Assembly (NCBI GenBank): GCA_029865945.1
Contig: JARXAH010000051.1
Coordinates: forward strand, 1 to 32,907
Source of the DNA: Bacteriovoracaceae bacterium
GTDB lineage: Bacteria > Bdellovibrionota > Bacteriovoracia > Bacteriovoracales > Bacteriovoracaceae
Length of the DNA stretch: 32,907 nucleotides
Reading direction: 5' to 3'
Below the pieces are notes generated by a model, which was not told the DNA's origin, made no database searches, and saw only the letters and a program-made list of their open reading frames with translations. This document shows, piece by piece, positions 987 through 19,889 of this stretch. The position numbers and the translations under genes were made by a program. How positions within the stretch are numbered: the first letter of the stretch is position 1; the number at the start of each line of letters is the position of its first letter.

Positions 987-1649
987 TTAAATACGGTTAA
1001 TCATTAAACCGATATCAATCATCATTCGATTCACTTCTGAAACATTGTTATGATAAATGCCTCTTACATTAAGACTGCGATCCATAACAAAAAAAGAGCC
1101 GGAATGAACGATATCTATGGCCGAAGTATCTTTAGTAAAATGAACGGGTGACTGTTTAAAAGATTGTAATAGTTCTTGAATTTGTAACTCTGTTCCGGTT
1201 AAAAATTTCCAAACAAAAGGATTCGCACGGTGTTTTCTCGCCAGTGGGAATAATACTTCGGGTGTATCTTTCAAAGGGTCGATGGTGACCGATAAGATGG
1301 AAATACTTTGGCCTAGGCCTCTCACCCTTTTTTCCATATTCTGAGCAGTTTTTAGCATTTCTGGGCATATAGTGGGACACGATGAAAAATGAAAGTGCAC
1401 TATAGTAAATTTCTTGGCCAAAGAAAGGGAGTTAAACTCCACTCCATTTTCATCTAAAAGAGTAAAATTTTTAACAGTAAATAATACTGAAGGAGGCTCT
1501 GGTAAAGGACGAATGACTGAGCGATAAATTGGCGTAAGAAAGGAAAAACCGACCAATATAACCCAGAATAGTTTTTTCTGTACCATGTTGGTGACGAAAT
1601 CCGAGACATGTGAGGTCACCGATTTATTGTTATTAATGACTACATTCAT
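987..1649 (-). CDS. sco: SCO1/SenC-family copper chaperone
   Basis: 220 residues. One N-terminal membrane anchor (about 26-43) precedes a periplasmic thioredoxin-fold domain. The CPTIC copper/redox motif is visible (C91, C95), as is the downstream conserved histidine in DIVHSGSFF (H182), which together form the Cu site of SCO proteins. These proteins deliver copper to, or reduce, the CuA site of oxidase subunit II, and a CuA-bearing subunit II is encoded in the same operon. The ATG overlaps the stop of the upstream cytochrome gene as ATGA, indicating translational coupling. Length is normal for the family. Confidence 0.93.
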   Translation of the reverse strand: MNVVINNNKSVTSHVSDFVTNMVQKKLFWVILVGFSFLTPIYRSVIRPLPEPPSVLFTVKNFTLLDENGVEFNSLSLAKKFTIVHFHFSSCPTICPEMLKTAQNMEKRVRGLGQSISILSVTIDPLKDTPEVLFPLARKHRANPFVWKFLTGTELQIQELLQSFKQSPVHFTKDTSAIDIVHSGSFFVMDRSLNVRGIYHNNVSEVNRMMIDIGLMINRI

Positions 1650-2596
1650 TTACTTCCAACTTTTGTGGGAGCAACTAATTTCTTCATTAGTTCTTCTCGA
1701 CTTTTAAAGTCATTCTTATAATCAACCAAACTATTCACATAATAAGATAATGCCCAAACATCTTCATCACTAACAACCCCACACCAAGCAGGCATTCCTG
1801 AGCCAGTGACACCTGCACACAATCTTTCGGCAACACCTTTTTCATCAGACGCACTCTTCATTGTATTCCAAGTAAAATCAGGTGGAAGAATTTTTATCTT
1901 TCGATCCTTGTATTGATAGAGATAATATTCGGATTCTTGAATCTTTAAATCATACATCGTAGGGTCAAATTCTGAGGCCGGAGTTTGATTGATTTTCATA
2001 CTCAAAGAATTTAATTCATCTTGAGTTACATAGGCCCGATGGCAGCTCTGACAGTTGGCCACGATATGATAAACTTCCTTTCCTCTTTCGATGGCAAAAG
2101 ACTTACGAGCTAATCCAAAAGGGTCATTCATCAAGCTGATTTTTTCACCAACTTTTATTTCCTTATTTTCCCAAACTTGAGGTGCAAAAGTTTTTATAAA
2201 TTGAGTAACGGCGTAGGTCTGCTGATCTGAAATATCCCACTTAAGCATCCCTGTTCCATTGAGGCCATGCTGAATGATTCTTTTAAAATCTTCATCCGTG
2301 GGCAAACCACCATCCTTCACTAAACCAAATTTATACAAACCTTGAGTAAAATTCCTTGGAGGTGGTACAGAACCTTTCGCTGCTGGCCCATTACCTTCGC
2401 CAGTCATCCCGTGGCAACTCATGCAGTATTCCATGTATACTTGCCGTCCCAAATTGAGTGTCTGGACGGAAACGACCTGATTTCCGTTAAAGATTTTTTC
2501 AGACTTAAAACCAGATTCCTCGCATGAAGTTAAAAAAATAAAAAAAAGTAAATAAACCAAACACTGAAATCTATTGGTGAATGATGTTTGCATCAT
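1646..2596 (-). CDS. Dihaem c-type cytochrome, lipoprotein
   Basis: The ATG at 2596 is chosen over an upstream GTG (2614) because GGAAAGG lies nine bases before it. The 316-residue product has a lipoprotein signal peptide with lipobox LTSC (Cys25), so it should be a membrane-tethered periplasmic protein. Two class-I-like haem domains follow: CMSCH (58-62) with probable axial Met117 in the TGMLKW segment, and CQSCH (182-186) with probable Met268 in SGMPAW. It sits between oxidase subunit III and SCO and overlaps SCO by 4 nt. A likely job is passing electrons to the CuA centre, since subunit II carries no haem c domain of its own. That role is inferred. Confidence 0.88.
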   Translation of the reverse strand: MMQTSFTNRFQCLVYLLFFIFLTSCEESGFKSEKIFNGNQVVSVQTLNLGRQVYMEYCMSCHGMTGEGNGPAAKGSVPPPRNFTQGLYKFGLVKDGGLPTDEDFKRIIQHGLNGTGMLKWDISDQQTYAVTQFIKTFAPQVWENKEIKVGEKISLMNDPFGLARKSFAIERGKEVYHIVANCQSCHRAYVTQDELNSLSMKINQTPASEFDPTMYDLKIQESEYYLYQYKDRKIKILPPDFTWNTMKSASDEKGVAERLCAGVTGSGMPAWCGVVSDEDVWALSYYVNSLVDYKNDFKSREELMKKLVAPTKVGSK

Positions 2597-2614
2597 AAAA
2601 CTCTGCCTTTCCAC

Positions 2615-3226
2615 TTATAAAGGTGCAAATAATCCAATTAGTAATAGAACCCACACCAGACTCAAAAAATGCCAAAACGAAGAGTAAAAATTTATCTTAA
2701 TTGTTTGTATTTTATATTCATTCTCATTGAGGAAAAAATCTGTCCTAGATTTTCGAATTCTATTTAAGAAAATCAACAAGAAAAAAAGTCCTAACAAAAT
2801 ATGGGCCGCATGTATCCATGTCATGGCTTGCAGAAAAGAAGCAAATGCCCCCGATTCAACGTTGAAACCATGAGTATTCAATTCTCTCCAAAACAAAAAT
2901 TGAACGGCCAAAAAACAAAATCCTAAGAAGATACTTAACTTCAAAGAAATCCGCGCCTTTTTTAACTTTTCAGGAGTTGATAAGTTTCGCTGAGCTGACC
3001 ATAAAAATAAAGAACTTAAGAAAATAAATATGGTACTTAAGGTTGGTTTTGAGATCGATAACAATAAAAAAGCAGGTGGCGGCCAAACCACGAAATTATC
3101 TCGCATGAGAATTAAGCAGAGCAAAAGAGCAGCAAAAAGCATACCAAAAATTAGCAAACTAATCGTTGATGCAATATTTAATCCATCGATTTTTTGTTGC
3201 TCTAAAAACGTTTTTTCATCAATCAT
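2615..3226 (-). CDS. Cytochrome c oxidase subunit III-like protein (second copy)
   Basis: 203 residues with about five hydrophobic helices. The C-terminal FWHFLSLVWVLL segment is the family signature (compare FWHFVDFVWILV in the other copy), and TWIHAAHILLGLFFL matches the HxxH helix of subunit III. It is quite divergent from the copy at 7893-8504. The ORF starts one base after the subunit I stop and ends immediately before the cytochrome c gene, so it belongs to the same transcript. Subunit III stabilises the proton-uptake side of haem-copper oxidases. Whether both copies sit in one enzyme cannot be told from sequence. Confidence 0.85.
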   Translation of the reverse strand: MIDEKTFLEQQKIDGLNIASTISLLIFGMLFAALLLCLILMRDNFVVWPPPAFLLLSISKPTLSTIFIFLSSLFLWSAQRNLSTPEKLKKARISLKLSIFLGFCFLAVQFLFWRELNTHGFNVESGAFASFLQAMTWIHAAHILLGLFFLLIFLNRIRKSRTDFFLNENEYKIQTIKINFYSSFWHFLSLVWVLLLIGLFAPL

Positions 3227-3227
3227 A

Positions 3228-4952
3228 CTACCTGACCAACTCTTCAGTTTGATATTGAAAATCTCTTCCAGTTTTTAATAAAGGATTACCAAATTCGTGA
3301 GGACCACATTTGACAGTTGGGATCGTATCAAAATTGTGTGTTTTTGGTGGAGACGGGAGCGTCCACTCTAGCGTTCCCACTTGCCATGGATTTTCAACGG
3401 CGATTGGGCCTTTCCAAAGGGAATAAATAAAATTAAATAAAAAGGGAAGCTGACCAAATCCCATTAATAAAGCACTCCAGGTAATGAAAGTGTTTAGTGG
3501 AATTAGATTTTGCATAAACTCGTAGACAAATGGATTGTATAGACGACGATGCATTCCTGCATATCCAACAACTAACATTCCAAAAAAAACACCATTGAGA
3601 CCAATCATTGTGATCCAAAAATGAATCTTGCCCAATGTTTCGTTCATCATTCTTCCAAACATTTTCGGAAACCAAAAATAAATTCCAGCAAAACCACCAA
3701 GAAGCACGGAGGCGGCCATCGTGTAGTGAAAGTGCCCAACGACGAAATAAGTGTCATGCAAATAAAAGTCAGTGGTGGCCGCACCAAGATAAAGACCAGT
3801 CAAGCCTCCAAGACCAAAAACAAAAACGACTCCAAGAGCAAAAATCATAGGCGTATCAAAAGATATAGAACCGCGCCATAAAGTTCCAAGCCAGTTGGCA
3901 AAGAAGATGGCAGAAGGAATGGAAATGGTCATCGTGAGAGTCATAAAAGTTTGAGTTAGAAGTGGCGACATTTGCGTCGTAAACATGTGGTGGCCATAAA
4001 CCAATGTTGATAAAACTGTAATCGCTGTCATCGAAAGTGCTGTTGCCTTTGCCGCAAAGGCTGGCTTACGCGAAAAGAAAGAAAGAAAATCCGAAACCAT
4101 TCCCCAAGCAGGAAGAATAAGAATATATACTTCTGGGTGACCAAAAATCCAAAAAACGTGTTGGAATAAGATGGGATCTCCTCCCCCAGTTGTTGCAGCT
4201 GCACCAGCGAGAAAAAAAGTGGTTCCAAAGACACGATCAAAGACGAGAAGGAGTAGCCCAGCACCTAAAACGGGAATAAATAATGCATTGAGAATGGCCG
4301 TTAACCATAATCCCCAAATTGTCAGAGGCATATCAAAGTAGCCCATACCAGGTGCTCTAAAAGCAATAATGGTAGTGATATAATTAATGGCGCCCATGGT
4401 TGAACTGACACCCAAAACAAAGAGGGATAAACACCAAAGCGTTTGTCCAGCACCTGGAGAGCCGATTAAAGTACTTAGCGTTGGGTATGAAGTCCAGCCG
4501 CCAGCAGCTCCACCGAGAGGTAGAAAAAGCGAGGCCAGCATAAGGACAGCAGAAAGAACGGCGATGTGAAAGGAGAGCAAGTTTAGCAAAGGAAATGCCA
4601 TGTCTCTTGCGCCTATCATGAGCGGAATACAATAGTTACCAAAAGCACCAATCAGAATGGGAGTAATTGCGAAGAAAATCATTATTGTTCCATGCAAAGT
4701 AAAAAGCATAGAATAAGTATCAGGAGGCACAACACCATTGGTATGAGGAAAAAGAATCGGCCCAATTACTGGGAAAGGTTCGCCAGGAAATGCAAGGGTC
4801 CAGCGAATGAGAAGGGCCATCATTCCACCAATACCTAAAAAGAAAATTCCGTACCACAAAAATTGTTTTGCGATCACTTTGTGGTCGTAAGAAAAAACAT
4901 ACTTGGTTAAGAATGTTGTCGGCGCCGGATGTATATCATGAGCGTATGTCAT
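3228..4952 (-). CDS. ctaD: Cytochrome c oxidase subunit I (aa3 type)
   Basis: 574 residues, the usual length, with 12 or more membrane helices. Metal ligands are present: H87 and H409 for low-spin haem a, H407 for haem a3, and H272, H321 and H322 for CuB. Tyr276 is in the HPEVY motif for the His-Tyr cross-link. Glu274 of the D pathway and the Asp117 of ARDMAF are kept, placing it among A-type oxidases. The position of the K-pathway lysine (PTGVK in typical A-type enzymes) reads PSAIF here, with Phe350. The start has GAGGG four bases upstream. It catalyses reduction of O2 to water with proton pumping in the inner membrane. It follows subunit II by 74 bases. Confidence 0.97.
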   Translation of the reverse strand: MTYAHDIHPAPTTFLTKYVFSYDHKVIAKQFLWYGIFFLGIGGMMALLIRWTLAFPGEPFPVIGPILFPHTNGVVPPDTYSMLFTLHGTIMIFFAITPILIGAFGNYCIPLMIGARDMAFPLLNLLSFHIAVLSAVLMLASLFLPLGGAAGGWTSYPTLSTLIGSPGAGQTLWCLSLFVLGVSSTMGAINYITTIIAFRAPGMGYFDMPLTIWGLWLTAILNALFIPVLGAGLLLLVFDRVFGTTFFLAGAAATTGGGDPILFQHVFWIFGHPEVYILILPAWGMVSDFLSFFSRKPAFAAKATALSMTAITVLSTLVYGHHMFTTQMSPLLTQTFMTLTMTISIPSAIFFANWLGTLWRGSISFDTPMIFALGVVFVFGLGGLTGLYLGAATTDFYLHDTYFVVGHFHYTMAASVLLGGFAGIYFWFPKMFGRMMNETLGKIHFWITMIGLNGVFFGMLVVGYAGMHRRLYNPFVYEFMQNLIPLNTFITWSALLMGFGQLPFLFNFIYSLWKGPIAVENPWQVGTLEWTLPSPPKTHNFDTIPTVKCGPHEFGNPLLKTGRDFQYQTEELVR

Positions 4953-5026: not shown

Positions 5027-5857
5027 TTATTGTTTTTCCCACTTCCAACCCCAATAATTTTCCACTGTAGAAGGGTCTGAACCATTTTTAGCGAGAACAT
5101 TCGCTGAAGCTTGCCATTTTTCGAAATCTTCGATTTCCATCACAACTAATTTTGCACCCATTTTATAGTGAGCAGTTCCACACATTTCTGCACAACCAAT
5201 ATCATAGGTTCCCGTCTTAGTTAGTTCTACCCAAAGCCTTGTAACTCGACCTGGGATGGCATCAACTTTATTGCGAATGAAAGGAATATAAAAAGAGTGA
5301 ATCACATCTTTCGAAGATACTCTATATTCTATTTTTCTTCCTTTCGGTACATAGAGGATGTGGTTGGTTGTGATATCATCATCGGTATTAAACTCCTTAT
5401 CACTTCCTTCATATCTAAAATTCCACATCCATTGTTGCGCCATAATCTCGACATGAAGTGGATTTTCGTCTGCTGTTGGAAATTTCCAAAAGACCTCTTT
5501 AATATCTTTATTGGCAATCCCTGCGATCATGGAGTCGATAGCAAAAAATACTACTAAACCGATCAGTAGAGTTATTTTGAGATGGGCCTTTTTATATCCA
5601 TAGGTGTAGTAAGGAACTTTATTTCTTTTTGCACTATAGTAATAACAGAAGCCAAATAGGCCGGCGCAAACAAAAATAAATGAAATAGTAATCGAAACCG
5701 TAATGTAATCAAACAACCAGTCGGATAAATGTCCATAAGTAGAAATATCGATTGGTCGCTTAAAGGCAGACCAAATGCTCGGTGCTTCAGAAACATTAAT
5801 TTGAGAAAATAAAATTTGCGAAAGAAAAAAATTGAATTGTTGCATCATCAGCGCCAT
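5027..5857 (-). CDS. ctaC: Cytochrome c oxidase subunit II (CuA subunit)
   Basis: 276 residues. A hydrophobic N-terminus (possible signal peptide) is followed by two membrane helices (about 50-75 and 93-113) and a periplasmic cupredoxin domain. The binuclear CuA ligands are all visible: H187, C222, E224, C226, H230 and M233. The aromatic electron-entry motif QQWMWNFRYEG is at about 141-151. There is no C-terminal CXXCH domain, so this is not a caa3 enzyme and needs a separate cytochrome donor. Candidates in the operon are the dihaem lipoprotein and the octahaem protein. AGAGG lies seven bases before the ATG. Confidence 0.96.
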   Translation of the reverse strand: MALMMQQFNFFLSQILFSQINVSEAPSIWSAFKRPIDISTYGHLSDWLFDYITVSITISFIFVCAGLFGFCYYYSAKRNKVPYYTYGYKKAHLKITLLIGLVVFFAIDSMIAGIANKDIKEVFWKFPTADENPLHVEIMAQQWMWNFRYEGSDKEFNTDDDITTNHILYVPKGRKIEYRVSSKDVIHSFYIPFIRNKVDAIPGRVTRLWVELTKTGTYDIGCAEMCGTAHYKMGAKLVVMEIEDFEKWQASANVLAKNGSDPSTVENYWGWKWEKQ

Positions 5858-5891: not shown

Positions 5892-7679
5892 TTAATACCA
5901 TGCATAGATCCAAATCAGCTGCGCGGGCAAATAAACTAGCGAGCTCCAAAAAATGATTTTAGACCACTGCAAAATGCCGCTATAGTGTTTTGCTTTAATA
6001 AAAAATCCTTGGAGGTTGAGAGCTAAAAAAACTAATGAGAAAACGACTGATCCATAAACATAAGTTAAAGACTCAGTCTTACCTAGGACAAAAGGCACAA
6101 TAGTTAAAATGGTAATTAAGAAACAAAAAAAGAACATTCTTTTTTGGGTAGACCTAAGACCAAGTACATTGGGATAGATTTTAATTCCCGCTTTTCCATA
6201 ATCAGCCGCATAACGAATAGAGATCGAAAGAAAGTGAGGAATTTGCCATAAAAAAAGAATCATAAACAATAGAAAAGAGAGAAAAGAAATTTCACCCGTA
6301 ACGCCTGAGTAACCCATCAGCGGAGGAATGGCACCTGGTATAGCTCCAATAAAGACGGCCAAAGGAGTTTTAGTTTTGAGGGGAGTATAAAGAGCAACAT
6401 AAAGTACTGAAGCGCTAAGGCCAAGAAAAAATGTAAGAAAATTACTGGCAAAATACGTCAACCCAAGTCCAAAACTAAGTAGAGTTGCCCCATAGTAAAA
6501 AGCTGAAGTCGGACTAATTCGGCCAGAAGGAATGGCCCGATTGGCAGTACGTTCCATGGTTGAATCAAGCTCGCGCTCCATAAAACAATTAATCACACAA
6601 GCACCAGCAACGGTGGCGATAATTCCTAGGAGCAAAAAGATGCATTGAAAAATGTGAACTGGGGCATTGGAAATAAGCACACCCATAAGGCTAGTCATCA
6701 AAACAAGAGTGGATAGCCTTGGCTTGGTCAAAGAAAGATAATCCAAAAATGTTCGTTTCATTTTTGATAAATGAGAAAAATCGTTTTCGTTGTTTGAGAA
6801 GGCGAGCACATTTAAAAAAGTTAAAAATGTTGTACAAAACAATAGTGCTGCTAATGCTAAGTGTAGTGTTGTAGGCAATACCTCAATGCCACTCGATGCT
6901 GTCCAAATGCCAACAAAAACTTGAAAAGAAATAATCGAAATCATGATTTTCCGAACCGGCATCCCTAAAATTAGAAAACTGTTAGGAATGGAACGGTAGA
7001 GAAAAATAAAAACGGTTAAAACTCCAAGTCCAAGAATTCGGTGTGTATAATGAAGCCACGCTTCTATTGACGAAGGCAAACCCCATGCGGAATTTTGAAT
7101 CATATCTTGGCAAAGTAGGCCATTAGACCAACCTGTTCCGCAAGCGCCACCAAGACCCAAATGTCTTATAGCAGCACCCCAAACCATTTGAACAAAGAGG
7201 AAAATGAGTGCCAATAGTAAATTTTTTACTAAATTTGAAGGCAATTTAATTTTTTCTTTCGTTAGTAAAATCGGGAAGTTTACTTGATGAATAAAGATTA
7301 AAGTTAACAAAAAAAGCATGGAAGTTGCTAAGTGAGCAGTAGAAACATAAGAGGGCAGGAGAAACAAAACGGTCAATCCGCCTAATACTCCTTGAAAAAT
7401 CACCAAAATTAGGGCGAATAAAAATAAATATTTTCTAGGGTTTGATTTTAAATAAGCAGTGATGAGTAGTATGACACTGATAAATCCCACTAAGCTAGCA
7501 AGCAACCTGTGAGAGTGCTCGATGAGTACCCCCCCGACCATCACGGGCATCAACTCTCCATAGCAGAGAGGCCAATCTGGGCATGCTAACGATGAACCGG
7601 TGTTATGAACAAAGCCACCCAAACAGATGAGACAAAAAGTTAATAAAATGTTGAGTCTTATTCCCCACTTAATAATCAC
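5892..7679 (-). CDS. ctaA/ctaB: Fused haem A synthase (CtaA) - haem O synthase (CtaB)
   Basis: 595 residues, two enzymes in one chain. Residues 1 to about 300 are CtaA/COX15-like: eight helices, Cys33/Cys39 in ACPDWPLC, a second Cys pair in GACGTGWSNGLLC, and haem-ligand histidines in EHSHR, STAHL, HYTHR and TTLHL. From about residue 310 (LTKPR) to the end is UbiA-type protohaem IX farnesyltransferase. Its first prenyl-diphosphate motif has Glu in place of the more common first Asp (NCFMERELDSTMERT). CtaB makes haem O and CtaA oxidises it to haem A for the oxidase encoded next door. The start is a GTG overlapping the upstream stop (GTGA), with AAGGA ten bases before it. Confidence 0.95.
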   Translation of the reverse strand: MIIKWGIRLNILLTFCLICLGGFVHNTGSSLACPDWPLCYGELMPVMVGGVLIEHSHRLLASLVGFISVILLITAYLKSNPRKYLFLFALILVIFQGVLGGLTVLFLLPSYVSTAHLATSMLFLLTLIFIHQVNFPILLTKEKIKLPSNLVKNLLLALIFLFVQMVWGAAIRHLGLGGACGTGWSNGLLCQDMIQNSAWGLPSSIEAWLHYTHRILGLGVLTVFIFLYRSIPNSFLILGMPVRKIMISIISFQVFVGIWTASSGIEVLPTTLHLALAALLFCTTFLTFLNVLAFSNNENDFSHLSKMKRTFLDYLSLTKPRLSTLVLMTSLMGVLISNAPVHIFQCIFLLLGIIATVAGACVINCFMERELDSTMERTANRAIPSGRISPTSAFYYGATLLSFGLGLTYFASNFLTFFLGLSASVLYVALYTPLKTKTPLAVFIGAIPGAIPPLMGYSGVTGEISFLSFLLFMILFLWQIPHFLSISIRYAADYGKAGIKIYPNVLGLRSTQKRMFFFCFLITILTIVPFVLGKTESLTYVYGSVVFSLVFLALNLQGFFIKAKHYSGILQWSKIIFWSSLVYLPAQLIWIYAWY

Positions 7680-7892: not shown

Positions 7893-8504
7893 CTAGATCA
7901 AGTAGACAAATGTAAATACTAAGATCCAGACAAAATCGACAAAATGCCAAAATAGACTCGCAATTTCTAGTTTCCCAGAATCACCATGATCGTAGTGCCC
8001 TTGATAGGCCAATACGTACTGACAGGTAAGATAGATAACCCCAGATAAAATGTGAAGTCCATGGAAGCCGGTAATTAAGTAAAAGGTAGATCCAAATAAA
8101 TTATTCCCGTGCAAAAAGTGTGTTAATCCCAAACCGTGAGAAACTAGATGGGTGTATTCATAAGCTTGAATTCCTAAAAATGCGACTCCGCCTACAATGG
8201 TGGCCATCAACCAATTGAGCATTTTTGCGCGATTTTTCAAACGGCAGTAGTGAATACTAAAAAACATAGTTAGAGATGTGATATTGAGAATGATGGTGGC
8301 AACGCCAGCGAGTCCAAAACCCAAATGTTCAACTGGCGACGGCCAAGTCTGTGTGGAGCGCATGACTGCGTAGGCAAGCAAAAACCCAGAAAAAGACATG
8401 GCATCGGTCACTAGAAACATCCACATCGCCAATTTACCAGGAGTCATCGTCCCAAACTGTGGTGATACATAACCTTTATTTACTAAATGATATCCGCCGC
8501 CCAT
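7893..8504 (-). CDS. ctaE: Cytochrome c oxidase subunit III
   Basis: 203 residues with five predicted helices, the short bacterial form. The family features are clear: GMTPGKLAMWMFLVTDAM near the N-terminus, GSTFYLITGFHGLHI in the middle and FWHFVDFVWILVF at the C-terminus. This copy is closer to consensus than the one at 2615-3226. AAGGA precedes the ATG by nine bases. It is 36 bases downstream of the octahaem cytochrome gene and 16 bases upstream of the small CPNC protein, so it bridges the bc part and the oxidase part of the operon. Confidence 0.95.
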   Translation of the reverse strand: MGGGYHLVNKGYVSPQFGTMTPGKLAMWMFLVTDAMSFSGFLLAYAVMRSTQTWPSPVEHLGFGLAGVATIILNITSLTMFFSIHYCRLKNRAKMLNWLMATIVGGVAFLGIQAYEYTHLVSHGLGLTHFLHGNNLFGSTFYLITGFHGLHILSGVIYLTCQYVLAYQGHYDHGDSGKLEIASLFWHFVDFVWILVFTFVYLI

Positions 8505-8540: not shown

Positions 8541-11378
8541 TTAAAGGTCTTTATATTTAGTTCCTTTAGGGTAATCATTTTGACTCATTTCCAATAAATA
8601 TTTTACGAGTGCATTAATTTGTTTTTCTGGATTATCATCCAACACTCCGGGAACGGCCGATGTTTTACCGTCATCCCAAAAATTTGGCATTGGCGTATAA
8701 GGCAATATAGCTTGAGGATTATTTAACCATTTCTTAATCCACGCTTCTCTCAATCTCATCTTCACTTGATGCAAGTCAGGTCCCTGGGCCGTATCATTTG
8801 TGAAACCAGTGGAGTGACAAGAAGTACAAGCTAATTCATTAAATATTTTAATGGCGGCCTCTCTTTCACCAGGCTCCCAATTCACTTTTCCAGAAAGATC
8901 CGCAAACATCGTTTGATCACTTTCTGCAGCAAAGTAAGCAACAAGTTTATTTACTTCATCATCAGAAAAATTAAACGATGGCATTCTTATCGTAAGATAG
9001 GTTCGGATCGGATGAACATTCCTTAGGAAGTGGTACAACCACTCAGAGTGTACTCTCAATCCTTCCTTCATCAACCAAGGAGGGCCCGCATTTTGGTCAT
9101 CTTTGTATACTTCGTTCACGCCAGCGATGTGTCCTTCTATATTATGACATCCGTAACAATTATATTTAGTGGCCACTTTTTTACCTTCTTCTGCAATGGC
9201 CTCTCTCGCATTCAAAATTTTCTTACCGGATGCAGGCACGTAATCATTGACGAGGCCAAGTAAAAATCCCGTGATGCTTGTAATTTCCTCTGGGTTAAGA
9301 TAGAAATTCGGCATTTTTGTTAGATCTTTAAATTTCTTAGGAACACCCAAATCCCACCTAGAGGGTTGCTCTAAATGATTGGTAATCCAATCATGTCTTG
9401 TGTGCGGAACTTGTTTTTGTTGACCAAATCCAAACTGCTCAACTGGCTTACTACCGACTGCTGAAAGTTCAGGCCCGATGGGTGGCATACTTTCGTCAAA
9501 TCCGGCAATCTGGTGACAAGAGTAGCAGCCGTATTTGGAGATACTTTTCTTACCGAGTGCTAGGGTGCGTTCTTCTTCGCTTAAGGCACTTAATTTTAAT
9601 TTTGCTGCCGCTTCCGTTTCAAAAGTTGAGAAGTCTTCAATTAATAATTGATCTCGCATTTTCGGATTTAATATTTCAAACTTGAGTGATTCAAAAGTTT
9701 TATTCTTCAAAGATAACATGTACGCAGTAAGGTCATTGGCCTCTTTTTCTGTGAGGCGAAACTTAGGCATGATCGTATTTTCTTGATAGTGAGCTGGTTT
9801 TAAAATCCAAGATTTAAGCCAATCTCCACTCACTTTAGAACCAATACCTGTCAAATAAGGCCCACTCATATTGGCCGTTTTGCTATAAGGTTCATCTATG
9901 CCTTCGACCTGGTGACAGCCAATACATCCGATGGTTTGAATAAGATGTTTTCCATTTTCAGCATCACCAGAAGTATATTTTGCAAACGGAGTATAAGATT
10001 CCGAGTTTTTATATAAGTACTCAACCATGGAATTTACTTCTGCCACGTTGAGCGCCATAAATTCAGGATTTGAATTATTGGCCTGGTTAAAGAAAGCTGG
10101 CATTCGCGATTTATGATTAAAAGAATGGGGAGACCAAATCCAATTTTTAGTAAATTCTGGCGTAATTTTGCCAGCGATTTTTAATAAACTAGGTCCCGGT
10201 TTAACTTTGTCGGCCCATCCTTCAATTTTGTGGCAACCATAACAACCATAATTTTCAATGAGACGTTTACCCTTATTGAGCTTATGGGCCATTGGTAAGT
10301 ACTCAACTCCTTGGTGACACTTGATACACATTCCTTCTGCGTACTGAAGCGGAAGCATGGGTTGAGGAACTTTGTGGGGTTCATGCCATTGATATTTTTT
10401 TATCCAATCTTGTTTTTGTTTTTCATTTTGAGGAACGTGGGCAGCGGAATTGAAATCATTTACCCGGTGTCCTTCGCCGCCGTGACAAGACGTACAGCCA
10501 AACTCTTTCAGAGGGTGTTTGGAATCTGGCCCTGCCGCAAGGGTATCAACATGAGGGTGAGTTTTATAAGGGTTTTCTTGATTTTCAAAGCCTTTTTGAT
10601 CAATGAAGACGTGACAGGTAGTACATCGATCCACTTTAGTGGTTTGTTGAAAATATCTGTCGTCCGTTAAGCGCTTAAGAACGACTTGTTTAATTTTAAC
10701 CGTGGGATCTAAGTAATCTAAAAAAGGAAGATTTCGAAGGAGCCATACAAAGGATTTAGAATTTAAATTGGCCGCGACGGTGAGCCTGTCTCTTGCTCCA
10801 ATAATTTCTTTAATTTTCTTATCTATCTCCATTTGAGAATTTTTAATTTCAAGGAGCTTTTTATTGAGCGAATTTTCCTCTGATTGAAACGCTTTTAATT
10901 TGTCTCGACCAAGATCAAAATTAGCTTGCGCCTCTTTCATTTTTTTATAGTAAATTTCTGCTTTCTGAGTTTCCTTAGCAACGTTGTAGTGCTCATAATT
11001 AAATTGATATTCACCCGATTTTGATCCCCAAACACCATTAGTCATATTTTGGGCGTAAATCTTTTTTTCTACTTCGCCAATTTCTCTTTCAATTCTACTT
11101 ATATCTGTGGCCTTGGATTCTAATTCTTGCTCAGCTTGCTTGAGTGAGGTTTCAAAATTTTTTAGCGCCACTTGATCAATATCTTTTGAAGTGGCAGCAA
11201 TTTGGTCATTAAGGTGCTGCTGTTTAATATCGATGGCCTTTAATTGAACGGCCTTCCAAGGTCTAAGATAATCATCAACAAACATCCACAAAACAGCAAA
11301 AAGTAGCAATACCGCCAAAACAGCAAATACTTTATTTAGCTTTTTGGTGTCGTACGCCATTCCAGGTTCTTTCTTCAT
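8541..11378 (-). CDS. Octahaem c-type cytochrome with membrane anchor and coiled-coil stalk
   Basis: 945 residues. Order: one N-terminal membrane helix (about 17-35); a long Lys/Glu-rich heptad-like region (about 45-200, a likely coiled coil); then eight CXXCH sites at C252, C295, C351, C379, C485, C618, C741 and C851. The first three are close together and lack nearby Met motifs, so may be bis-His haems. The last five are spaced about 105-135 residues apart, each followed by a Met-Pro motif (M426, M537, M689, M799, M897), the mark of five tandem class-I cytochrome c domains. It follows the cytochrome b gene, in the place usually held by cytochrome c1 or an equivalent, and precedes oxidase genes. 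It probably carries electrons from the Rieske centre towards CuA. RBS AGGA is nine bases from the ATG. Confidence 0.93.
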   Translation of the reverse strand: MKKEPGMAYDTKKLNKVFAVLAVLLLFAVLWMFVDDYLRPWKAVQLKAIDIKQQHLNDQIAATSKDIDQVALKNFETSLKQAEQELESKATDISRIEREIGEVEKKIYAQNMTNGVWGSKSGEYQFNYEHYNVAKETQKAEIYYKKMKEAQANFDLGRDKLKAFQSEENSLNKKLLEIKNSQMEIDKKIKEIIGARDRLTVAANLNSKSFVWLLRNLPFLDYLDPTVKIKQVVLKRLTDDRYFQQTTKVDRCTTCHVFIDQKGFENQENPYKTHPHVDTLAAGPDSKHPLKEFGCTSCHGGEGHRVNDFNSAAHVPQNEKQKQDWIKKYQWHEPHKVPQPMLPLQYAEGMCIKCHQGVEYLPMAHKLNKGKRLIENYGCYGCHKIEGWADKVKPGPSLLKIAGKITPEFTKNWIWSPHSFNHKSRMPAFFNQANNSNPEFMALNVAEVNSMVEYLYKNSESYTPFAKYTSGDAENGKHLIQTIGCIGCHQVEGIDEPYSKTANMSGPYLTGIGSKVSGDWLKSWILKPAHYQENTIMPKFRLTEKEANDLTAYMLSLKNKTFESLKFEILNPKMRDQLLIEDFSTFETEAAAKLKLSALSEEERTLALGKKSISKYGCYSCHQIAGFDESMPPIGPELSAVGSKPVEQFGFGQQKQVPHTRHDWITNHLEQPSRWDLGVPKKFKDLTKMPNFYLNPEEITSITGFLLGLVNDYVPASGKKILNAREAIAEEGKKVATKYNCYGCHNIEGHIAGVNEVYKDDQNAGPPWLMKEGLRVHSEWLYHFLRNVHPIRTYLTIRMPSFNFSDDEVNKLVAYFAAESDQTMFADLSGKVNWEPGEREAAIKIFNELACTSCHSTGFTNDTAQGPDLHQVKMRLREAWIKKWLNNPQAILPYTPMPNFWDDGKTSAVPGVLDDNPEKQINALVKYLLEMSQNDYPKGTKYKDL

Positions 11379-11409: not shown

Positions 11410-12483
11410 TTATATGTTCAACTCGAACTCTGGCATGAAAACAATATACTTAAGATTGATAAACCATCTTAGGTACATTTTTAATGGTAAACTCATCATC
11501 GTTAGTACCAAGAAAATGAGAAAATAATATCTTGCTTTGCCCATCGTAATGAGAAATTTTTGGCCAAATTTTCTGGTAATAAAAACAGGTACAAAAGTGT
11601 AATAGATGGCCACAAGTATCAGTCCTAAAAATTCTCTGGCAAAAATATTTTTTGGTAGAGGCATATTGAGGAACTTAATCCAAAAAATTTCCGATAGGTT
11701 AATGTTATTGGCAGCAACAACTTTGTGGGCATCCCAAAATTCAAATGGGCCATAAAATGTCCAGTTAGGGCCACGCAAAAACGTTCCAATAATGATAAGG
11801 AAGATCCACAACAATAACCAACCAAACAGAAAGGAAGTTATGGCGAACTTGCGATCTTTAAAAGAGTAGTATCCATTCCCTTTGGGATTGGTATCGATAT
11901 AGGGAATCGCAATCAATCCTACAACAATGAGTACTGGCAAAGTTACTCCGGCGATCCAAGGATCAAAATAAACCAACATTTCTTGAAGACCTAAAAAGTA
12001 CCAAGGGGCCTTTGCAGGATTGGGCGCCCAGGTGGGATTGGCCGGCTCTTCAAGCGGTGATTTTAGTAATATTGACCAGGCGATCAAAAAAACAGTACCC
12101 GCAATAATGGCAAATAATTCTGTATAGACTAGGTTTGGCCAGGCCCAAACTTTTTCACGATTTTCTGGAGTTCCTTCGACCGGTGGCTCACCTGCGGCCA
12201 TTCTTTGATCATTGATTACCCCTTTGTGAATGGCAAACCATGTCGACCAAATGACAAGTGCTAATAAAAAGATGATCGGTACGTTATCGGGCCAAATAAC
12301 AATTGATAGAAAAACAGGGTCTAAACTCATCCATCCGAAAATGATTAAAATTAAGATAAGAGCGATGGTTGCAAATTTTTTGCTGGCCACTACCTCAATG
12401 TGCTTGATGCCTAAAAAGAAGAAAAAAATAATTCCGGTAAAACTAAAAACCGGATCTGAAAGATAATTGATTATGGCCTTCAT
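11410..12483 (-). CDS. petD: Cytochrome b C-terminal (subunit IV-like) protein of the quinol oxidoreductase
   Basis: 357 residues. The centre (about 112-250) matches subunit IV or the C-terminal half of cytochrome b: PNLVYTELFAI, the Qo-site segment and following helices. The Qo motif, PEWY in most families, reads A159-P160-W161-Y162, followed by FLGLQEMLVY. Compared with plastid subunit IV (about 160 residues) it is enlarged, with about three extra helices before the domain and two or three after it. It pairs with the b6-like protein encoded 81 bases upstream to form the membrane quinol-oxidising core. GAGG lies seven bases before the ATG. Confidence 0.92.
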   Translation of the reverse strand: MKAIINYLSDPVFSFTGIIFFFFLGIKHIEVVASKKFATIALILILIIFGWMSLDPVFLSIVIWPDNVPIIFLLALVIWSTWFAIHKGVINDQRMAAGEPPVEGTPENREKVWAWPNLVYTELFAIIAGTVFLIAWSILLKSPLEEPANPTWAPNPAKAPWYFLGLQEMLVYFDPWIAGVTLPVLIVVGLIAIPYIDTNPKGNGYYSFKDRKFAITSFLFGWLLLWIFLIIIGTFLRGPNWTFYGPFEFWDAHKVVAANNINLSEIFWIKFLNMPLPKNIFAREFLGLILVAIYYTFVPVFITRKFGQKFLITMGKARYYFLIFLVLTMMSLPLKMYLRWFINLKYIVFMPEFELNI

Positions 12484-12564: not shown

Positions 12565-13350
12565 TTAAAGAGGAGCTGAAATTCCCCCATCCTTACGAAC
12601 TCGCCAGAAGTGAACAGCAATTAAGACGGCCACAACCACGGGAATGAAAACACAGTGCAAAATATAAAAACGTAGCAGTGCCGCTTCACCAACGAAACGT
12701 CCACCCAGCAACTGAAATCGAACATCATTTTTATCAGAAACGAGGGCAAAATCACCAATTTTTGCAAACGCAGCCCCGGGCCCGCCATTACCTAGAAAAG
12801 GAGTCGCTTTTGCCATGTTAGATCCTACCGTAATGGCCCAAATGGCCAACTGATCCCATGGAAGTAAATATCCTGTAAAAGAAAGCAACATCGTTAACAC
12901 TAAGAGAATAACACCCACTCCCCAGTTAAATTCGCGAGGTGGTTTATAAGAACCGGTCATAAAGACGCGGAACATGTGAATCCAAACAGTGATAACCATA
13001 GCATGTGCGCCCCAACGATGAAGCTCTCGCATGATTCCTAGGGGAACGTGCTCGCGCAAAGCAATAATATCGTTGTAGGCATACTCGGCCGTGGGACGGT
13101 AATAAAACATTAACAAAATACCGGTGACCGTGAGGGCCAAAAAAATAAAGAAAGTTAAACCACCCATACACCATGTGTAACCAAGTTGAACGCCTGATTT
13201 TTTTAGCTTAATGGGATGTAAGTGCAAAAAAACGTTACCTGCAACAACAGCAGCACGATTCCTCGCATTGTTTGGTGGGCCATGGCGAAAGATAGATTTC
13301 CAAACTTGGGTTTTGGAAACTTTTTCTACAAATGATTCATTATCGGCCAT
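12565..13350 (-). CDS. petB: Cytochrome b6-type N-terminal cytochrome b
   Basis: 261 residues, four core helices. Haem b ligands are H111/H125 (helix B) and H232/H247 (helix D). The +15 spacing on helix D is the b6 pattern rather than the +14 of mitochondrial cytochrome b. Cys61 in [10 protein letters not shown] aligns with the b6 cysteine that covalently binds the extra haem c_i (c_n), so that haem may be present. The [15 protein letters not shown] segment is also b6-like. It is the quinol-binding core of a Rieske/cytochrome b complex in the inner membrane. AGGAG is ten bases upstream of the start, and the gene follows the Rieske gene by 47 bases. Confidence 0.95.
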
Positions 13351-13397: not shown

Positions 13398-13907
13398 TCA
13401 AACGGATATATAAGAATCCGGATTGCTCCACTCGCCTTTTTCGTAACGAAAAACTCGCGTTTTATCGACGATGGCATTCCCAGTGGCGTCCAGAAAAACT
13501 TTATATCTCTCGAGAGGTCTAGGTGCAGGCCCCTCAAAATTAATTCCGTTGGGATAAAATCCTGAACCGTGACATGGGCACTTGAATTTTCTTTCGGCTG
13601 ACAACCAAGTTGGTACACAACCTAAGTGAGTACAGATGTTGGACATGGCAACGAATTTTCCATCGCTCTTAAAAATCCAGACCCCGTAGATTTTTTTCCA
13701 ACGCTCGTCTACGCCCGTGTCGTATGCTTCCGGTCTGCCAGCATTAAAATCCATCGCTGGTTCAAATACAACATTGGGATAAAGATAACGAAAAATGAGA
13801 CTTAGTACTCCTCCAACGGATGCTGACAAAGCAATAAATCCAATGGAAAGGTAACTAAAAAATTCCCGTCGATTAATACTAGATTTTTTTTCTACTTCTA
13901 AGGCCAT
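13398..13907 (-). CDS. petC: Rieske iron-sulfur protein of the bc/b6f-type complex
   Basis: 169 residues. Both cluster-binding boxes are present: CTHLGC (C92, H94, with C97 for the disulfide) and CPCHGS (C110, C112, H113), giving the 2Fe-2S centre with two His and two Cys ligands. The N-terminus has a twin-arginine-like NRREFFSYL followed by one hydrophobic helix (about 20-44), as expected for a Tat-inserted, membrane-anchored Rieske protein. It is the first gene of the respiratory operon. AAGGA lies nine bases before the ATG, and a -35-like TTGACA is about 95 bases upstream. Confidence 0.96.
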   Translation of the reverse strand: MALEVEKKSSINRREFFSYLSIGFIALSASVGGVLSLIFRYLYPNVVFEPAMDFNAGRPEAYDTGVDERWKKIYGVWIFKSDGKFVAMSNICTHLGCVPTWLSAERKFKCPCHGSGFYPNGINFEGPAPRPLERYKVFLDATGNAIVDKTRVFRYEKGEWSNPDSYISV

Positions 13908-14046: not shown

Positions 14047-14949
14047 TTAAGATTTTTTCAACATGATTAGTAGTTCTAAAATTTTCATATTCACAACGTT
14101 ATCTTTTTCTAATTTTTTGAGCTCACTAAGTAAATCAATAAAGTATTGATGAGGAGTGATGTTGTGCGAAAGGAGTGTGTTGATGGAGGAAAGAAAGTTC
14201 AATTGTAATTGCTGATATTGGTTGTTATCAATTCCCAGCTTTTGCATAACCTCTTGACGACTTTCAAGCTTCCAAAATTCTCGAATGTTTGAAATCCCTT
14301 TGGGATTATTAAAATAAACAAGTCCAAGAGCAGCGTGAAGAGATTCAAGTCCAATGCTTGCTGAGGAGCTGCTGACGAGAGATTCAAAATAAGGGACCTC
14401 TTCTGTTTTCTCGCCTTGCGCGAGAGTGATGATGGCAACTTGTTTGAGGCCTCTATCTTGTGTTTGATGCATCAAAAGTTGTAAAGGTTTCCAAGGAAAT
14501 TGGGGAGAATTTTTAAAATTGATGGAAAGTTTTCCTAGGCCGACCACACCACTAAATTGCACTTGAGGGTCTGGATCCGTAAGGGATTTTTCCAACCAGG
14601 GAAGCACAGACTCGTGGTTAATAGAGGACATCGTGACGATGATAAAATTTCTGGTGCGAGGATCTTGTTGTTGAGATTTATAAGTCGCTCCTAGCTGTTC
14701 AATGAGCCAGGGAATGTCTTCCTCGGGAATATGGGAGGAATTAACATACTTAGATAATTCATAGGCCGCGACCCATTTGTTACCAAAAGTTTTACTATCG
14801 AGTTCTTCGACTAATGTTTTATAGTCCCCTGATTTTGAGATAAGTTTGGTGAGCGCAAAAAAAAGGAGCGATACTCCTATAAGAATAAAAATGGGCATGG
14901 ACCATTCTGTCCACCAACTTTCGCTGATGTTTTCAGAGTTATTTGACAT
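14047..14949 (-). CDS. Membrane-anchored HEAT-repeat-like protein
   Basis: The ATG at 14949 is preferred because AAGGA lies eight bases upstream; a longer reading to 15006 has no comparable site. The 300-residue product has one membrane helix near the N-terminus (about 17-36) and then a helical region. Repeated patterns such as DPDPQVQFSGVVGLGKL and the surrounding paired helices look like HEAT/armadillo repeats, a protein-protein interaction scaffold. It ends 140 bases before the Rieske gene on the same strand, so it may help assemble or regulate the respiratory complex, but a separate promoter seems to divide them. Function unknown. Confidence 0.75.
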   Translation of the reverse strand: MSNNSENISESWWTEWSMPIFILIGVSLLFFALTKLISKSGDYKTLVEELDSKTFGNKWVAAYELSKYVNSSHIPEEDIPWLIEQLGATYKSQQQDPRTRNFIIVTMSSINHESVLPWLEKSLTDPDPQVQFSGVVGLGKLSINFKNSPQFPWKPLQLLMHQTQDRGLKQVAIITLAQGEKTEEVPYFESLVSSSSASIGLESLHAALGLVYFNNPKGISNIREFWKLESRQEVMQKLGIDNNQYQQLQLNFLSSINTLLSHNITPHQYFIDLLSELKKLEKDNVVNMKILELLIMLKKS

Positions 14950-15035
14950 GTCAGAATTCCTTGATTGGCAGTGATTCAATATAGCGATAAATTCCCATAA
15001 TACCAATCCCTCAATGTTCGCTTTGGAAAAAATTT

Positions 15036-15599: not shown

Positions 15600-15720
15600 C
15601 CCAAGAGATAGGTTTGTTTTGAGCAAAAAGTGGGTACGAAAGTGGGCGGTATTTTTTGAAAATTTAAGTTGAGAGAGGGGTTTTTAGAAGTTTTTCCGTC
15701 ACATGTTAAAATAGAAGTTG

Positions 15721-17379
15721 ATGGGAACACAAATTTTTTTATATTTTCTGATCATTATATTCGTATCTAGTAACGCAGATGCCAAAGATCAACTGGTGTC
15801 ACCATCTTTTTCCCCACACACGGCCGTGTTCTCTCATTTTAAAGAACGTGAAATCAAGGGACAATTAGCTCAGTCCCAAGAACTTAAAGATTGCCAAGAT
15901 AAAGCCAAAGTTAAATACCCAGATCAAAATGATATGATTTCTAAAGGATATGCAGAAATCAGTTCCTGTTTCAAAGAACAAATCGACAGGCTTCCAAAAG
16001 AAAAATTAAAACAACTAGAAGAATCGCTCGGATTAAAAAAATTTGGTCTCATTAAAAGTAAAGAATCAGAAAAAATTGGCGAATATTTTTCGAAGTTAAT
16101 CCAAGAAGCATTTTTACTTAACGTCGCAAATGATACGAAAGGTAAACAGCTAAACTATCTCAATCATCAGCAAGTAAATCAGATTTACCATCAGATGATG
16201 ACTCAGCAATTTTTCAATGAACTTTCTAGCTATTGTTTAAAAGATTCTCAAACTAAAGAACAATATAAAATCACAAAATCAAGTAATGATGAAATGCTAA
16301 AGATGGAAGATATACTTCAACTTGATCCAACCCAAGTAAATAAATTTTTCAGCGAATGCTTAGTCGAAGTCAATGAGGCCTGTGGGAAAAAGGGAACTAC
16401 CAATCAAAATCATGCTGGTTGTGCCTTTAACTCAAGAATGCGGGATTACAAAAAAATTACTAAGCATTTAGAGAAGGCGAATAAAGATTTTACTCAGTGG
16501 GCCGCTGAAAATCCTAATACCACGATTTGGCAATTTGCCGTTCAAAATTCCAGTAAGGCCGGCCAAATTTCTCAAGACAAGATCGATAAATTGACAAAAA
16601 TATCGAGCACGCAGTTTGTTGATGAAATGCATGGTGAAAGACAAAATGCCTTAACCAAAACGGCAACTAATTTTGATGAAAAATGCGGACCACAGGGCTC
16701 TGATAAAGATTGTGAAATGTTAATTGAAAAAGGTTCTCAGGAATCTCTGGGTGAGTTAATGATGAATCAAGAATTACAATATCTCGCGAGGGAAAAATTG
16801 TTGGACGAAACGAAAGGCGCTGATGAATTAAAAAAGATGCTGGAAGATGAATCCATCACATCCATTATAGGTAAAGATAAGTTAGAAGAATTAAAAAATT
16901 CTAATGATGCAGGGAAAATAAAAGAATTTTTACAAGAACACTTAGTGCAATCCAAGCTCGCGATTAAAGAGATGATAAAAAAGCGATTGGAAACCATCGG
17001 GCTGTCAAAAAATGATCAGATAAGAACAGCAACGCAAAAAATTCAAAATATAAGTAAAGAACTTAAAGATCGACCGGGTGAATATAGCGCTATCGTTTTT
17101 TTTGCCAATGTCATTAGTTCAATACCCACTTACATTAAGGGGGGACAAAAACATACGGACAATTTTAATACAGAACTTGCTAGCTGGAAAAATGATACAA
17201 CATTGCAGTCAAAATATGGTGGAGTTGGTCTAAAGTGGTTAACTGATTACGCAGCAGCTGAACACGGAAGAGCGCCGGCCTCCTCTGGCAGTGAGGATTC
17301 GGGAGTGATTGATGATGAGGGGCTCGATTCTTTTACTCTGGATAAAAAACAAGATGCGAACGCTGCTCCTAGTAATTAA
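15721..17379 (+). CDS. Secreted Cys-containing helical protein, unknown function
   Basis: 552 residues from the ATG at 15721; a TTG one codon earlier is the alternative, and the ribosome site is weak for both. A signal peptide is evident (hydrophobic core FLYFLIIIFV, cleavage expected after NADA). The mature protein is Lys/Glu/Gln-rich and mostly helical. It has eight cysteines, all in the first two-thirds, consistent with disulfides in the periplasm or outside. The C-terminus is acidic and low in order (SSGSEDSGVIDDEGLDS). No known domain was recognised. Its stop codon lies inside the left arm of the inverted-repeat element at 17373-17556. Confidence 0.8.
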   Translation: MGTQIFLYFLIIIFVSSNADAKDQLVSPSFSPHTAVFSHFKEREIKGQLAQSQELKDCQDKAKVKYPDQNDMISKGYAEISSCFKEQIDRLPKEKLKQLEESLGLKKFGLIKSKESEKIGEYFSKLIQEAFLLNVANDTKGKQLNYLNHQQVNQIYHQMMTQQFFNELSSYCLKDSQTKEQYKITKSSNDEMLKMEDILQLDPTQVNKFFSECLVEVNEACGKKGTTNQNHAGCAFNSRMRDYKKITKHLEKANKDFTQWAAENPNTTIWQFAVQNSSKAGQISQDKIDKLTKISSTQFVDEMHGERQNALTKTATNFDEKCGPQGSDKDCEMLIEKGSQESLGELMMNQELQYLAREKLLDETKGADELKKMLEDESITSIIGKDKLEELKNSNDAGKIKEFLQEHLVQSKLAIKEMIKKRLETIGLSKNDQIRTATQKIQNISKELKDRPGEYSAIVFFANVISSIPTYIKGGQKHTDNFNTELASWKNDTTLQSKYGGVGLKWLTDYAAAEHGRAPASSGSEDSGVIDDEGLDSFTLDKKQDANAAPSN

Positions 17380-17556
17380 CCTGAGCTCGGGAAATCCGTC
17401 GGTCTGCTGTGTCGCAAGAACTGCTCTCTTCTTGCGGCTTGGTTTTCACCAAGCCTCAGTCGGTCGCACTTCTGCTCCTTGCATACCTCGGATTTGCCGA
17501 CTCAGGGTTTTCCAGCAATAAAGTTCTGATGTTTTTCACCGAGCTGAGGTTAATTA
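17373..17556. repeat. 184-bp structured element with 18-bp terminal inverted repeats
   Basis: The left arm TAATTAACCTGAGCTCGG (17373-17390) and right arm (17539-17556) are reverse complements with one mismatch. Inside are two adjacent perfect 8-bp hairpins: CGCAAGAA/TTCTTGCG (17413-17436) and GGCTTGGT/ACCAAGCC with a 4-nt loop (17436-17455). A further pairing is AAATCCG/CGGATTT (17392-17398 with 17489-17495), and AGTCGG/CCGACT (17458-17463 with 17497-17502) competes with alternatives. It is visibly more GC-rich than its surroundings. It sits between convergent genes and contains both their stop codons. It may be a mobile palindromic element (MITE/REP-like), a structured RNA or a bidirectional terminator; no U tract is seen. 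Confidence 0.7.
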
Positions 17557-18867
17557 AATTTCCTTAATCCAAACGAAAACTTTTTCTTTGCCTGGAGGAG
17601 AAGGGCGAGAAGATTTACTTATATAAACATTTACCGAATCCGTTGAATTTAACTCACGAACAAAAGATTCAATATTTTTTGAAGGCACGTGAAGATTAAA
17701 AAATACGCCGCCAGGAATTTCATTGCCTACTAACTCGTTGGTCACGGGAGAAATTTCAAATTTTTTTACTAAATCTAAGATTTTACTTTTAGAGGCAAAG
17801 ATATCAGAGGACTTCACTAGCAAACGATAGGATTTATAAAATCCATACTGCGTATCTCTAAAATCATCCTCAGAATTGCTAAAACTAAAAATACTATACC
17901 GATCGCCTTGCTTTTGACCGAAGTCCACGGTGGTGGCCAAAATATCAGTTTCAGGCGTGAGGAAGTCGGGAATGTTTGGATTATTGAATTTTGTTTGAAT
18001 GTTTTTAAACTCATCTACGGAAAGCTCTATCTTTCTTTTTGCGGGGGGAACTTGAGTTTTAAAAACTAGTTTCGTGTCGGGTGCAGAGTGATTAATTTCC
18101 AATGCGGCAATTTCTTTAAGTAAGTAAGATTGATATATCTTAGAGAATTTATTGTAGCTAAAAATGAAAAGCACGAAAATAAAAAGAATGATGGTTGTTT
18201 CTCTAAATACTTTACCCCACCAGCCATAGAATAAAGGGATCGACTTTTGCTCTGGAATTTTCTCATCAGAGGTTATACTTGAGGCCGTTACGGTTGGAGG
18301 AGGAAAAACCGTATTTTGATTCAACTGCAAAATTTGTTCAAACTCTCTATACCGCCAAAGGTGACCTACACTAATTGGATGAGCTGAATGAACGGCTTGA
18401 TCTTGATGAGTATCTAAATTCATATCTCGAAATAAAAAAGAATCCCCTTGATAAATCCACCTTCCTAGGTAAAAAAAATCTTGAATCGAAGTGGACTTGT
18501 GGGGATACAACTTTAGGTAAGTGGAACGTAACGAAGTGATAATAAATTTTTCTGTTAACCCCAGATGCTTGGCGATCAATGGTAAGGGTTGCTTTAGTTC
18601 AGAATGAAGAAAGAAAATAAAAATATTAAAAAAAACTTCGAACACTTGTCTCACTAGAGGGTGAGTACTCGATTCACAATAATTTTTTAAAATTCTTCCT
18701 TGCTCCATCCAACTTAAATCGGATTGCAAGTAAGTTTCAAAGAATTTCTTGGAATAAGTATACTTTTGAGAGGTGGGAAAAAATTTCCCTATAAAGTGAG
18801 TTGAAACCATTCTTTCGTGATCATGATTTAAACTTCTTGATTGATCTTGTGTCGCCGTTATCTCCAT
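17554..18867 (-). CDS. Single-pass membrane protein, unknown function
   Basis: 437 residues. A cytoplasmic-looking N-terminal part (1 to about 215) is followed by one membrane helix (about 222-240) and an extracytoplasmic C-terminal part. The latter (about 330-435) alternates predicted strands and helices, with segments like YRLLVKSSDIFASKSKILDLVKKF and GGVFFNLHVPSKNIESFVREL. These recall the DUF4349-like fold in which a periplasmic domain follows one TM helix; this likeness is weak. It converges with the secreted 552-aa protein across the palindromic element. The ribosome site is weak and an internal start (Met20) is possible. Confidence 0.7.
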   Translation of the reverse strand: MEITATQDQSRSLNHDHERMVSTHFIGKFFPTSQKYTYSKKFFETYLQSDLSWMEQGRILKNYCESSTHPLVRQVFEVFFNIFIFFLHSELKQPLPLIAKHLGLTEKFIITSLRSTYLKLYPHKSTSIQDFFYLGRWIYQGDSFLFRDMNLDTHQDQAVHSAHPISVGHLWRYREFEQILQLNQNTVFPPPTVTASSITSDEKIPEQKSIPLFYGWWGKVFRETTIILFIFVLFIFSYNKFSKIYQSYLLKEIAALEINHSAPDTKLVFKTQVPPAKRKIELSVDEFKNIQTKFNNPNIPDFLTPETDILATTVDFGQKQGDRYSIFSFSNSEDDFRDTQYGFYKSYRLLVKSSDIFASKSKILDLVKKFEISPVTNELVGNEIPGGVFFNLHVPSKNIESFVRELNSTDSVNVYISKSSRPSPPGKEKVFVWIKEI

Positions 18868-19464: not shown

Positions 19465-19487
19465 TACTACCTAGATTGGGGACAAGC

Positions 19488-19889
19488 ATGGAAGATATCA
19501 TCATTAACGGAAGGGCCCAGGTCATAGAACTTTTAAAACTATTACCTGATGAAAATAAATTAAAAATCTTAACCATTGTTAAACAAAAAAATCCCAAACT
19601 TGCCAAAGAATTATTAATGTACACGGTTACGTTTGATACTTTCATGGGACTGAACGATAGCAGTTTAGAAATTGTATTGCCCTATATTAGTAATAAGATC
19701 TTAGCACTCTCACTTAAGAGCATTAAAAATGATTTCCAGCGAAAAATCTTGAAATGTCTTACGAGAACAAGAGCACTCGAAGTTTTTACTACTATCAAAA
19801 ATGATACAAGTACTTTTCAAGATACATTAAAGGCGAGAGAAAAAGTGGCGCAAATTTTAGGCTCCCTCTATCAAAGTGAATTGCTCTAA
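19488..19889 (+). CDS. Stand-alone FliG C-domain-like protein
   Basis: 133 residues from the ATG at 19488 (GGGG six bases upstream); a TTG at 19476 is the alternative. The middle aligns by eye with the FliG C-terminal region: a TFDTFMGLNDSSLEIVL segment parallels FEDL..DDRSIQRVL of FliG, and ILALSLKSIKNDFQRKIL parallels LALALKGA..LREKIL. A terminal helix (REKVAQILGSL) resembles ENEQKAILLIVRRL. At about 133 residues it is far shorter than FliG (about 330), and the torque-helix charges are largely absent. It is probably not a flagellar switch protein itself. Its 3' end overlaps the convergent ppx/gppA gene by 33 bp. Confidence 0.7.
   Translation: MEDIIINGRAQVIELLKLLPDENKLKILTIVKQKNPKLAKELLMYTVTFDTFMGLNDSSLEIVLPYISNKILALSLKSIKNDFQRKILKCLTRTRALEVFTTIKNDTSTFQDTLKAREKVAQILGSLYQSELL

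Follow-up and report, generated by a model that had tools for sequence, protein, structure and literature searches.

From protein anatomy, operon structure, conservation, gene co-occurrence and the kinship of the Rieske protein, we conclude that the octahaem c-type cytochrome encoded in the contig analysed here (JARXAH010000051.1 of the Bacteriovoracaceae assembly GCA_029865945.1; 32,907 nucleotides, hereafter the window) is very probably the electron-output subunit of a b6f-like complex of split cytochrome b and Rieske protein, in which it occupies the position held elsewhere by cytochrome c1 or f. The closest match of the Rieske protein and the published descriptions of similar operons place this complex in a known kind, of which the Bdellovibrionota are a further lineage.

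Anatomy of the octahaem cytochrome

The gene (8541..11378, minus strand, ATG start) encodes 945 residues that comprise a membrane anchor, a helical hairpin, a bis-His tri-haem module and five class-I domains with His/Met ligation. The single hydrophobic segment covers residues 17-35, and eight CXXCH motifs are found at 252, 295, 351, 379, 485, 618, 741 and 851. Past the anchor, the helical region (residues ~69-205; 10764..11175, minus strand) is followed by the tri-haem module (residues ~246-372; 10263..10643, minus strand), delimited by alignment and profile, which holds the CXXCH motifs 252/295/351 and lacks a Met-Pro motif but contains three invariant spare histidines, His274, His288 and His314. 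The C-terminal part (residues ~373-932; 8583..10262, minus strand) is resolved by Pfam, motifs and alignment into five domains with CXXCH at 379/485/618/741/851, each with one Met-Pro ligand motif (Met 426/537/689/799/897). Besides these class-I domains, Pfam gives weak cytochrome c7/c3 matches at residues 287-384. The anatomy that the initial annotation had read from the sequence, namely a membrane anchor, a three-haem module without Met motifs and five Met-Pro class-I domains, is thus present in the 945-residue reading frame, and its placing of the gene between cytochrome b and oxidase subunit III is also correct, with petB- and petD-like genes on one side and a coxIII-like gene (7893..8504, minus strand) on the other.

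Neither Pfam nor NCBIfam, the domain libraries searched, contains a model for the whole protein, and the single-haem Cytochrom_C1 family (PF02167) has no match in this eight-haem sequence. We also considered the octahaem enzymes of the HAO/OCC/OTR type and rejected them: five of the eight haems lie in Met-ligated class-I domains and no HAO-family match was obtained.

The Rieske/cytochrome b operon

The octahaem gene follows four genes of the same strand. The first encodes a membrane-anchored HEAT-repeat protein (14047..15006, minus strand), which is conserved within the order Bacteriovoracales and precedes the Rieske gene throughout it; we know of no role for such a protein in complex III. Then come a Rieske iron-sulfur protein of 169 residues (13398..13907, minus strand), a PetB-like cytochrome b6 of 261 residues (12565..13350, minus strand) and a PetD-like subunit IV of 357 residues with extra predicted membrane segments (11410..12483, minus strand). 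The order Rieske-PetB-PetD-octahaem is maintained in every locus with enough flanking sequence, within Bacteriovoracales as well as in further families, and PetB and the octahaem gene occur together, the exceptions being likely assembly breaks. Nowhere beside the Rieske, b6 and subunit IV genes is there a c1 gene, the octahaem protein being the sole c subunit encoded there. This constant arrangement supports the proposal of the initial reading that c1 is replaced, the octahaem protein standing in for cytochrome c1/f.

PetB Cys61, at what we take to be the cysteine site of haem c_n in cytochrome b6, is invariant across all split-b loci, as is the APWY motif at the Qp site of PetD, and the b-haem His spacings, read from the sequence, are b6-like. 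The Rieske motif in these loci is CPCHGSGF or CPCHGSGY. The change from PEWY to APWY and the residue after CPCHGS are commonly taken as signs of menaquinone and of lower potential. Such motif readings call for caution, however, since Kustd1480, with Phe at that position, still has a high potential (PMC12954380). In the proposed mechanism, menaquinol would be oxidized at a Qp site built by PetB and PetD. One electron would reach the other quinone site by way of the b haems and, probably, haem c_n. Its partner would go from the Rieske cluster into the membrane-proximal bis-His tri-haem module and from there along the five His/Met class-I haems.

Other parts of the window contain a 137-residue reading frame with a FliG C-terminal domain match (19476-19889, plus strand), no other flagellar genes being recognized in the window, and two larger frames without a Pfam match: one of 553 residues (15718-17379, plus strand), with weak relatives at the corresponding position of other genomes, and one of 437 residues (17554-18867, minus strand).

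Distribution and conservation

Strong matches to the octahaem protein occur in 86 of the 116 Bacteriovoracales genomes. The relatives returned by one scan of genome contigs with the octahaem protein were from Bacteriovoracales only; full-length relatives with 33-39% identity are also encoded in other Bdellovibrionota families. In an alignment of 14 sequences, the eight CXXCH motifs, the five Met-Pro pairs and His 274/288/314 are all invariant. The architecture is therefore not a chance assembly, as it recurs in 86 of 116 genomes and as even the distant relatives retain every haem and ligand motif. Among sequence variants, the octahaem proteins of one genus (g27, loci L003-L006) have 25-50 extra C-terminal residues.

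A profile search found the tri-haem module essentially once per genome, and only in the octahaem protein or in three shorter relatives of 588-597 residues with six or seven haems (L056:8146-9912, L057:8651-10444, L058:8000-9787), which are encoded downstream of a Rieske protein and a longer cytochrome b. These proteins retain the same three CXXCH motifs and three histidines, lack the long helices and have roughly 40-60 residues between membrane and first haem; they may represent an ancestral or a parallel form. Since the module is found only beside Rieske/cytochrome b, it is a feature of Rieske/cytochrome b complexes in Bdellovibrionota, and within this phylum the long helices were found only with split-b complexes.

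Plasmid records yielded single class-I domains only, mostly from Rhizobiales, and a scan of viral contigs gave no octahaem relative. A phmmer search of the PDB with a 141-residue stretch spanning most of the tri-haem module found no match, while two profile searches with the module weakly matched the c7-like subunit of PDB 8k9e (E 1.7e-4 and 0.014), presumably from alternative complex III (ACIII), a marginal match that makes it a candidate relative. ACIII has a multihaem c subunit like that of the window, but no Rieske protein or cytochrome b.

The long helices

Two AlphaFold2 runs gave the same helices, at residues 11-64, 69-133 and 137-204. The turn at 134-136 separates two arms (69-133 and 137-204) and is predicted with a pLDDT of about 92 (block means 92-95 at 133-137), the second run having block means of 88-95 over residues 91-180, turn included; the model is poorer in the haem domains, where pLDDT falls below 70 in places. 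The arms have a nearly fixed length in the 14 relatives: Trp41 and position 133 are 92 residues apart in 12 of them and 89 in two, and position 145 and Arg215 are 70 residues apart in 12 and 71-72 in two. Their sequences are only 15-33% identical, compared with 50-63% in the tri-haem module, and the tip between them varies from 5 to 24 residues. Because arm length is fixed, arm sequence poorly conserved and the tip variable, the helical part is most likely an antiparallel hairpin and not an extended rod, the packing of arm against arm being read from secondary structure, confidence across the turn and length statistics. A fixed arm length despite weak sequence conservation amounts to a specific structural prediction.

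The initial annotation had proposed a 150-residue coiled-coil stalk that might set the distance from the membrane or drive oligomerization. Its coiled coil is upheld by the long helices that AlphaFold2 predicts, but the helical part measures about 165 residues and is folded back on itself, which disfavours a spacer. The helices might also pair in parallel between chains, thus spacing the cytochrome from the membrane or promoting oligomerization, and many relatives have, in both arms, a heptad-like hydrophobic period of 3.45-3.55 (p<0.05 for arm B in 11 of 14 and for arm A in 5 of 14) that could be read in this way. We nevertheless regard such a parallel coiled coil as unlikely, given the confident helix-turn-helix at 133-137, the restriction of length variation to the turn and the lack of significant periodicity in either arm of the window's own protein (p 0.12 and 0.08). 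A fold search of the PDB with the AlphaFold2 model returned generic coiled coils only, none with E below 0.001.

In the preferred hairpin, arms of ~65 residues, roughly 100 Å each, would fold back instead of distancing the haems from the membrane. By analogy with the model of the Kuenenia counterpart, they most likely serve as a brace for the complex and its Rieske subunits or wrap around them.

The oxidase operon and the electron output

In the window, as in several genera, an aa3 oxidase operon directly follows the octahaem gene. Its first gene is the coxIII-like gene mentioned above, which goes with the aa3 operon where the latter stands apart; CoxI of an A-type oxidase (3228..4952, minus strand), CoxII with an intact CuA motif (CAEMCGTAHYKM; 5027..5857, minus strand) and a class-I cytochrome c that has two haems and a lipobox (LTSC; 1646..2614, minus strand) are also encoded. 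The latter is present in nearly every aa3 operon read, both in the order and in family f7, and was absent from the sole f3 aa3 operon read (L081); it is the likely donor to CuA. Two different coxIII genes (2615-3226 and 7893-8504, minus strand) lie in this one oxidase cluster and both are kept in relatives; CtaA/COX15 and CtaB/UbiA are fused in one 595-residue frame (5892-7679, minus strand) and are separate in the distant relative L082.

Across the 116 genomes, the octahaem gene and the window type of CoxI are both present in 83 and both missing from 26, three having the octahaem gene only and four CoxI only (Fisher p about 1.5e-18, uncorrected for phylogeny); the exceptions can be explained as draft-assembly effects. 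The physical linkage is looser. Homologues of the octahaem gene always adjoin Rieske and cytochrome b genes, but oxidase genes are neighbours only in some genera, and in many genera the oxidase is far away. In genus g34, the aa3 operon (CoxIII-CtaA/B-CoxII-CoxI-CoxIII-dihaem c-SCO-COX4) is located elsewhere in the genome, and no oxidase adjoins the octahaem gene in families f3 and f7. In genomes G029 and G001, the first coxIII stays beside the octahaem gene and the remaining aa3 operon lies farther off.

These observations bear on the wire of the initial annotation, said there to replace soluble cytochrome c as well as c1, and on its reading as a fixed supercomplex in which no other protein than the octahaem cytochrome links the complex with the CuA oxidase. 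The adjoining aa3 operons with CoxIII first and the strong co-occurrence would agree with such a bridge, and a five-helix CoxIII is known to link ACIII and oxidase in the Flavobacterium supercomplex (PMC8361435). Yet we consider it unlikely: the two operons are far apart in g34 and in families f3/f7, and the hairpin adds no reach. Moreover, the claim regarding soluble cytochrome c is not supported by the gene content, since a dihaem lipoprotein cytochrome c comes with the aa3 operon itself and the host genome also encodes both a soluble cytochrome c of 112 residues and a cbb3 oxidase that includes CcoO/CcoP, so that the octahaem protein need not be the only wire to CuA. A stronger version, in which the hairpin and the octahaem chain form a clamp round the mobile Rieske heads with a continuous haem path, complex III and aa3 making up one quinol oxidase unit, is improbable in our view; if true, the clamp would be an independently built supercomplex comparable to that of Actinobacteria.

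Conversely, the chief output might be another periplasmic acceptor, such as cbb3 or a peroxidase, with aa3 as one sink among several. Two genomes of high completeness, G023 and G035, have the octahaem gene and a cbb3-type oxidase, and aa3 CoxI was not detected in them. Both are draft assemblies, however: the octahaem gene of G023 sits at a contig end, and G035 retains CoxIII beside the gene, while the aa3 operon, 37 kb away in a sister genome, would lie past the G035 contig edge. Assembly gaps being likely, G023, G035 and G058 were dropped as proof of independence from aa3, and we hold this second output to be very unlikely as the main one. We favour an exit of the electrons to c-type carriers, which would feed the aa3 oxidase and probably cbb3.

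Comparison with known complexes

Nitrospina gracilis is reported to have a Rieske protein and a split cytochrome b adjoining an "atypical octaheme cytochrome c", with the same operon type in Kuenenia and Methylomirabilis oxyfera (PMC3578206). As far as that description goes, these organisms resemble the window in having a Rieske protein, a split cytochrome b and no c subunit besides an octahaem c. The model of Kustd1480-1485 of Kuenenia stuttgartiensis includes a cytochrome b of the b6 type, a subunit IV with five helices and haem c_N, and the long helices of its large multihaem c are modelled half round the complex, Rieske subunit included (PMC12954380). The window shares with it a four-helix b6-like cytochrome b, the cysteine for haem c_N, a subunit-IV-like protein with extra helices and a multihaem c with long helices. 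The initial annotation, which could match the architecture to no named family, was hence correct inasmuch as the whole protein is named in none of the libraries, but the type of complex is in print (PMC3578206, PMC12954380).

The Rieske protein provides the direct link: its best PDB match is 9rk3 (E 2.3e-41, 144.7 bits, 52% identity), followed by 9rk4 (79 bits, 39% identity), all other entries reaching at most 54 bits. From its molecule name and the Phe at the Tyr site, as described in PMC12954380, 9rk3 is taken to be Kustd1480. It is this match, together with the published operon and model descriptions, that assigns the complex to the known kind, and the octahaem proteins of the window and of Kuenenia, Nitrospina and Methylomirabilis are likely homologous. 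The two systems also differ. The Kuenenia complex includes subunits of an NAD(P) oxidoreductase and serves an anaerobic function, whereas the window encodes an aerobic chain with aa3, and no NAD(P) oxidoreductase subunit was found among the annotated neighbours in the window and the loci read. For subunit IV of the window, about eight membrane segments are predicted, some within a ~100-residue N-terminal extension outside the subunit IV match, compared with five in Kuenenia.

Two further systems are more remote. The Geobacter cluster ExtOPQS also combines a Rieske protein, the b6-like ExtP and ExtQ with a multihaem c, and in NCBIfam PetB and PetD match ExtP and ExtQ best; however, identity with ExtP, ExtQ or ExtS was rejected, all scores being below the curated cut-offs (256.5/290, 54.6/150 and 47.2/100 bits). 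ExtS is a four-haem lipoprotein (PMC5877670). In the bcc complex of Actinobacteria, the multihaem QcrC likewise stands in place of c1 and feeds aa3, but cytochrome b is unsplit, unlike in the window. QcrC has two haems and is not known to have a hairpin. The actinobacterial III2IV2 supercomplex is obligate and operates without soluble cytochrome c (PMC8361435).

Discussion

Our literature search, which covered open-licence papers, found no description of a split-b Rieske/octahaem complex in Bdellovibrionota. Within complex III, conservation is lowest in the c-haem subunit, and the octahaem design, until now associated with anammox, nitrite-oxidizing and nitrite-dependent methane-oxidizing bacteria, is the ordinary complex III of many aerobic Bacteriovoracales and of other Bdellovibrionota. 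Since some relatives of Bacteriovorax can be cultivated, this design becomes testable outside the slow-growing organisms of the nitrogen cycle.
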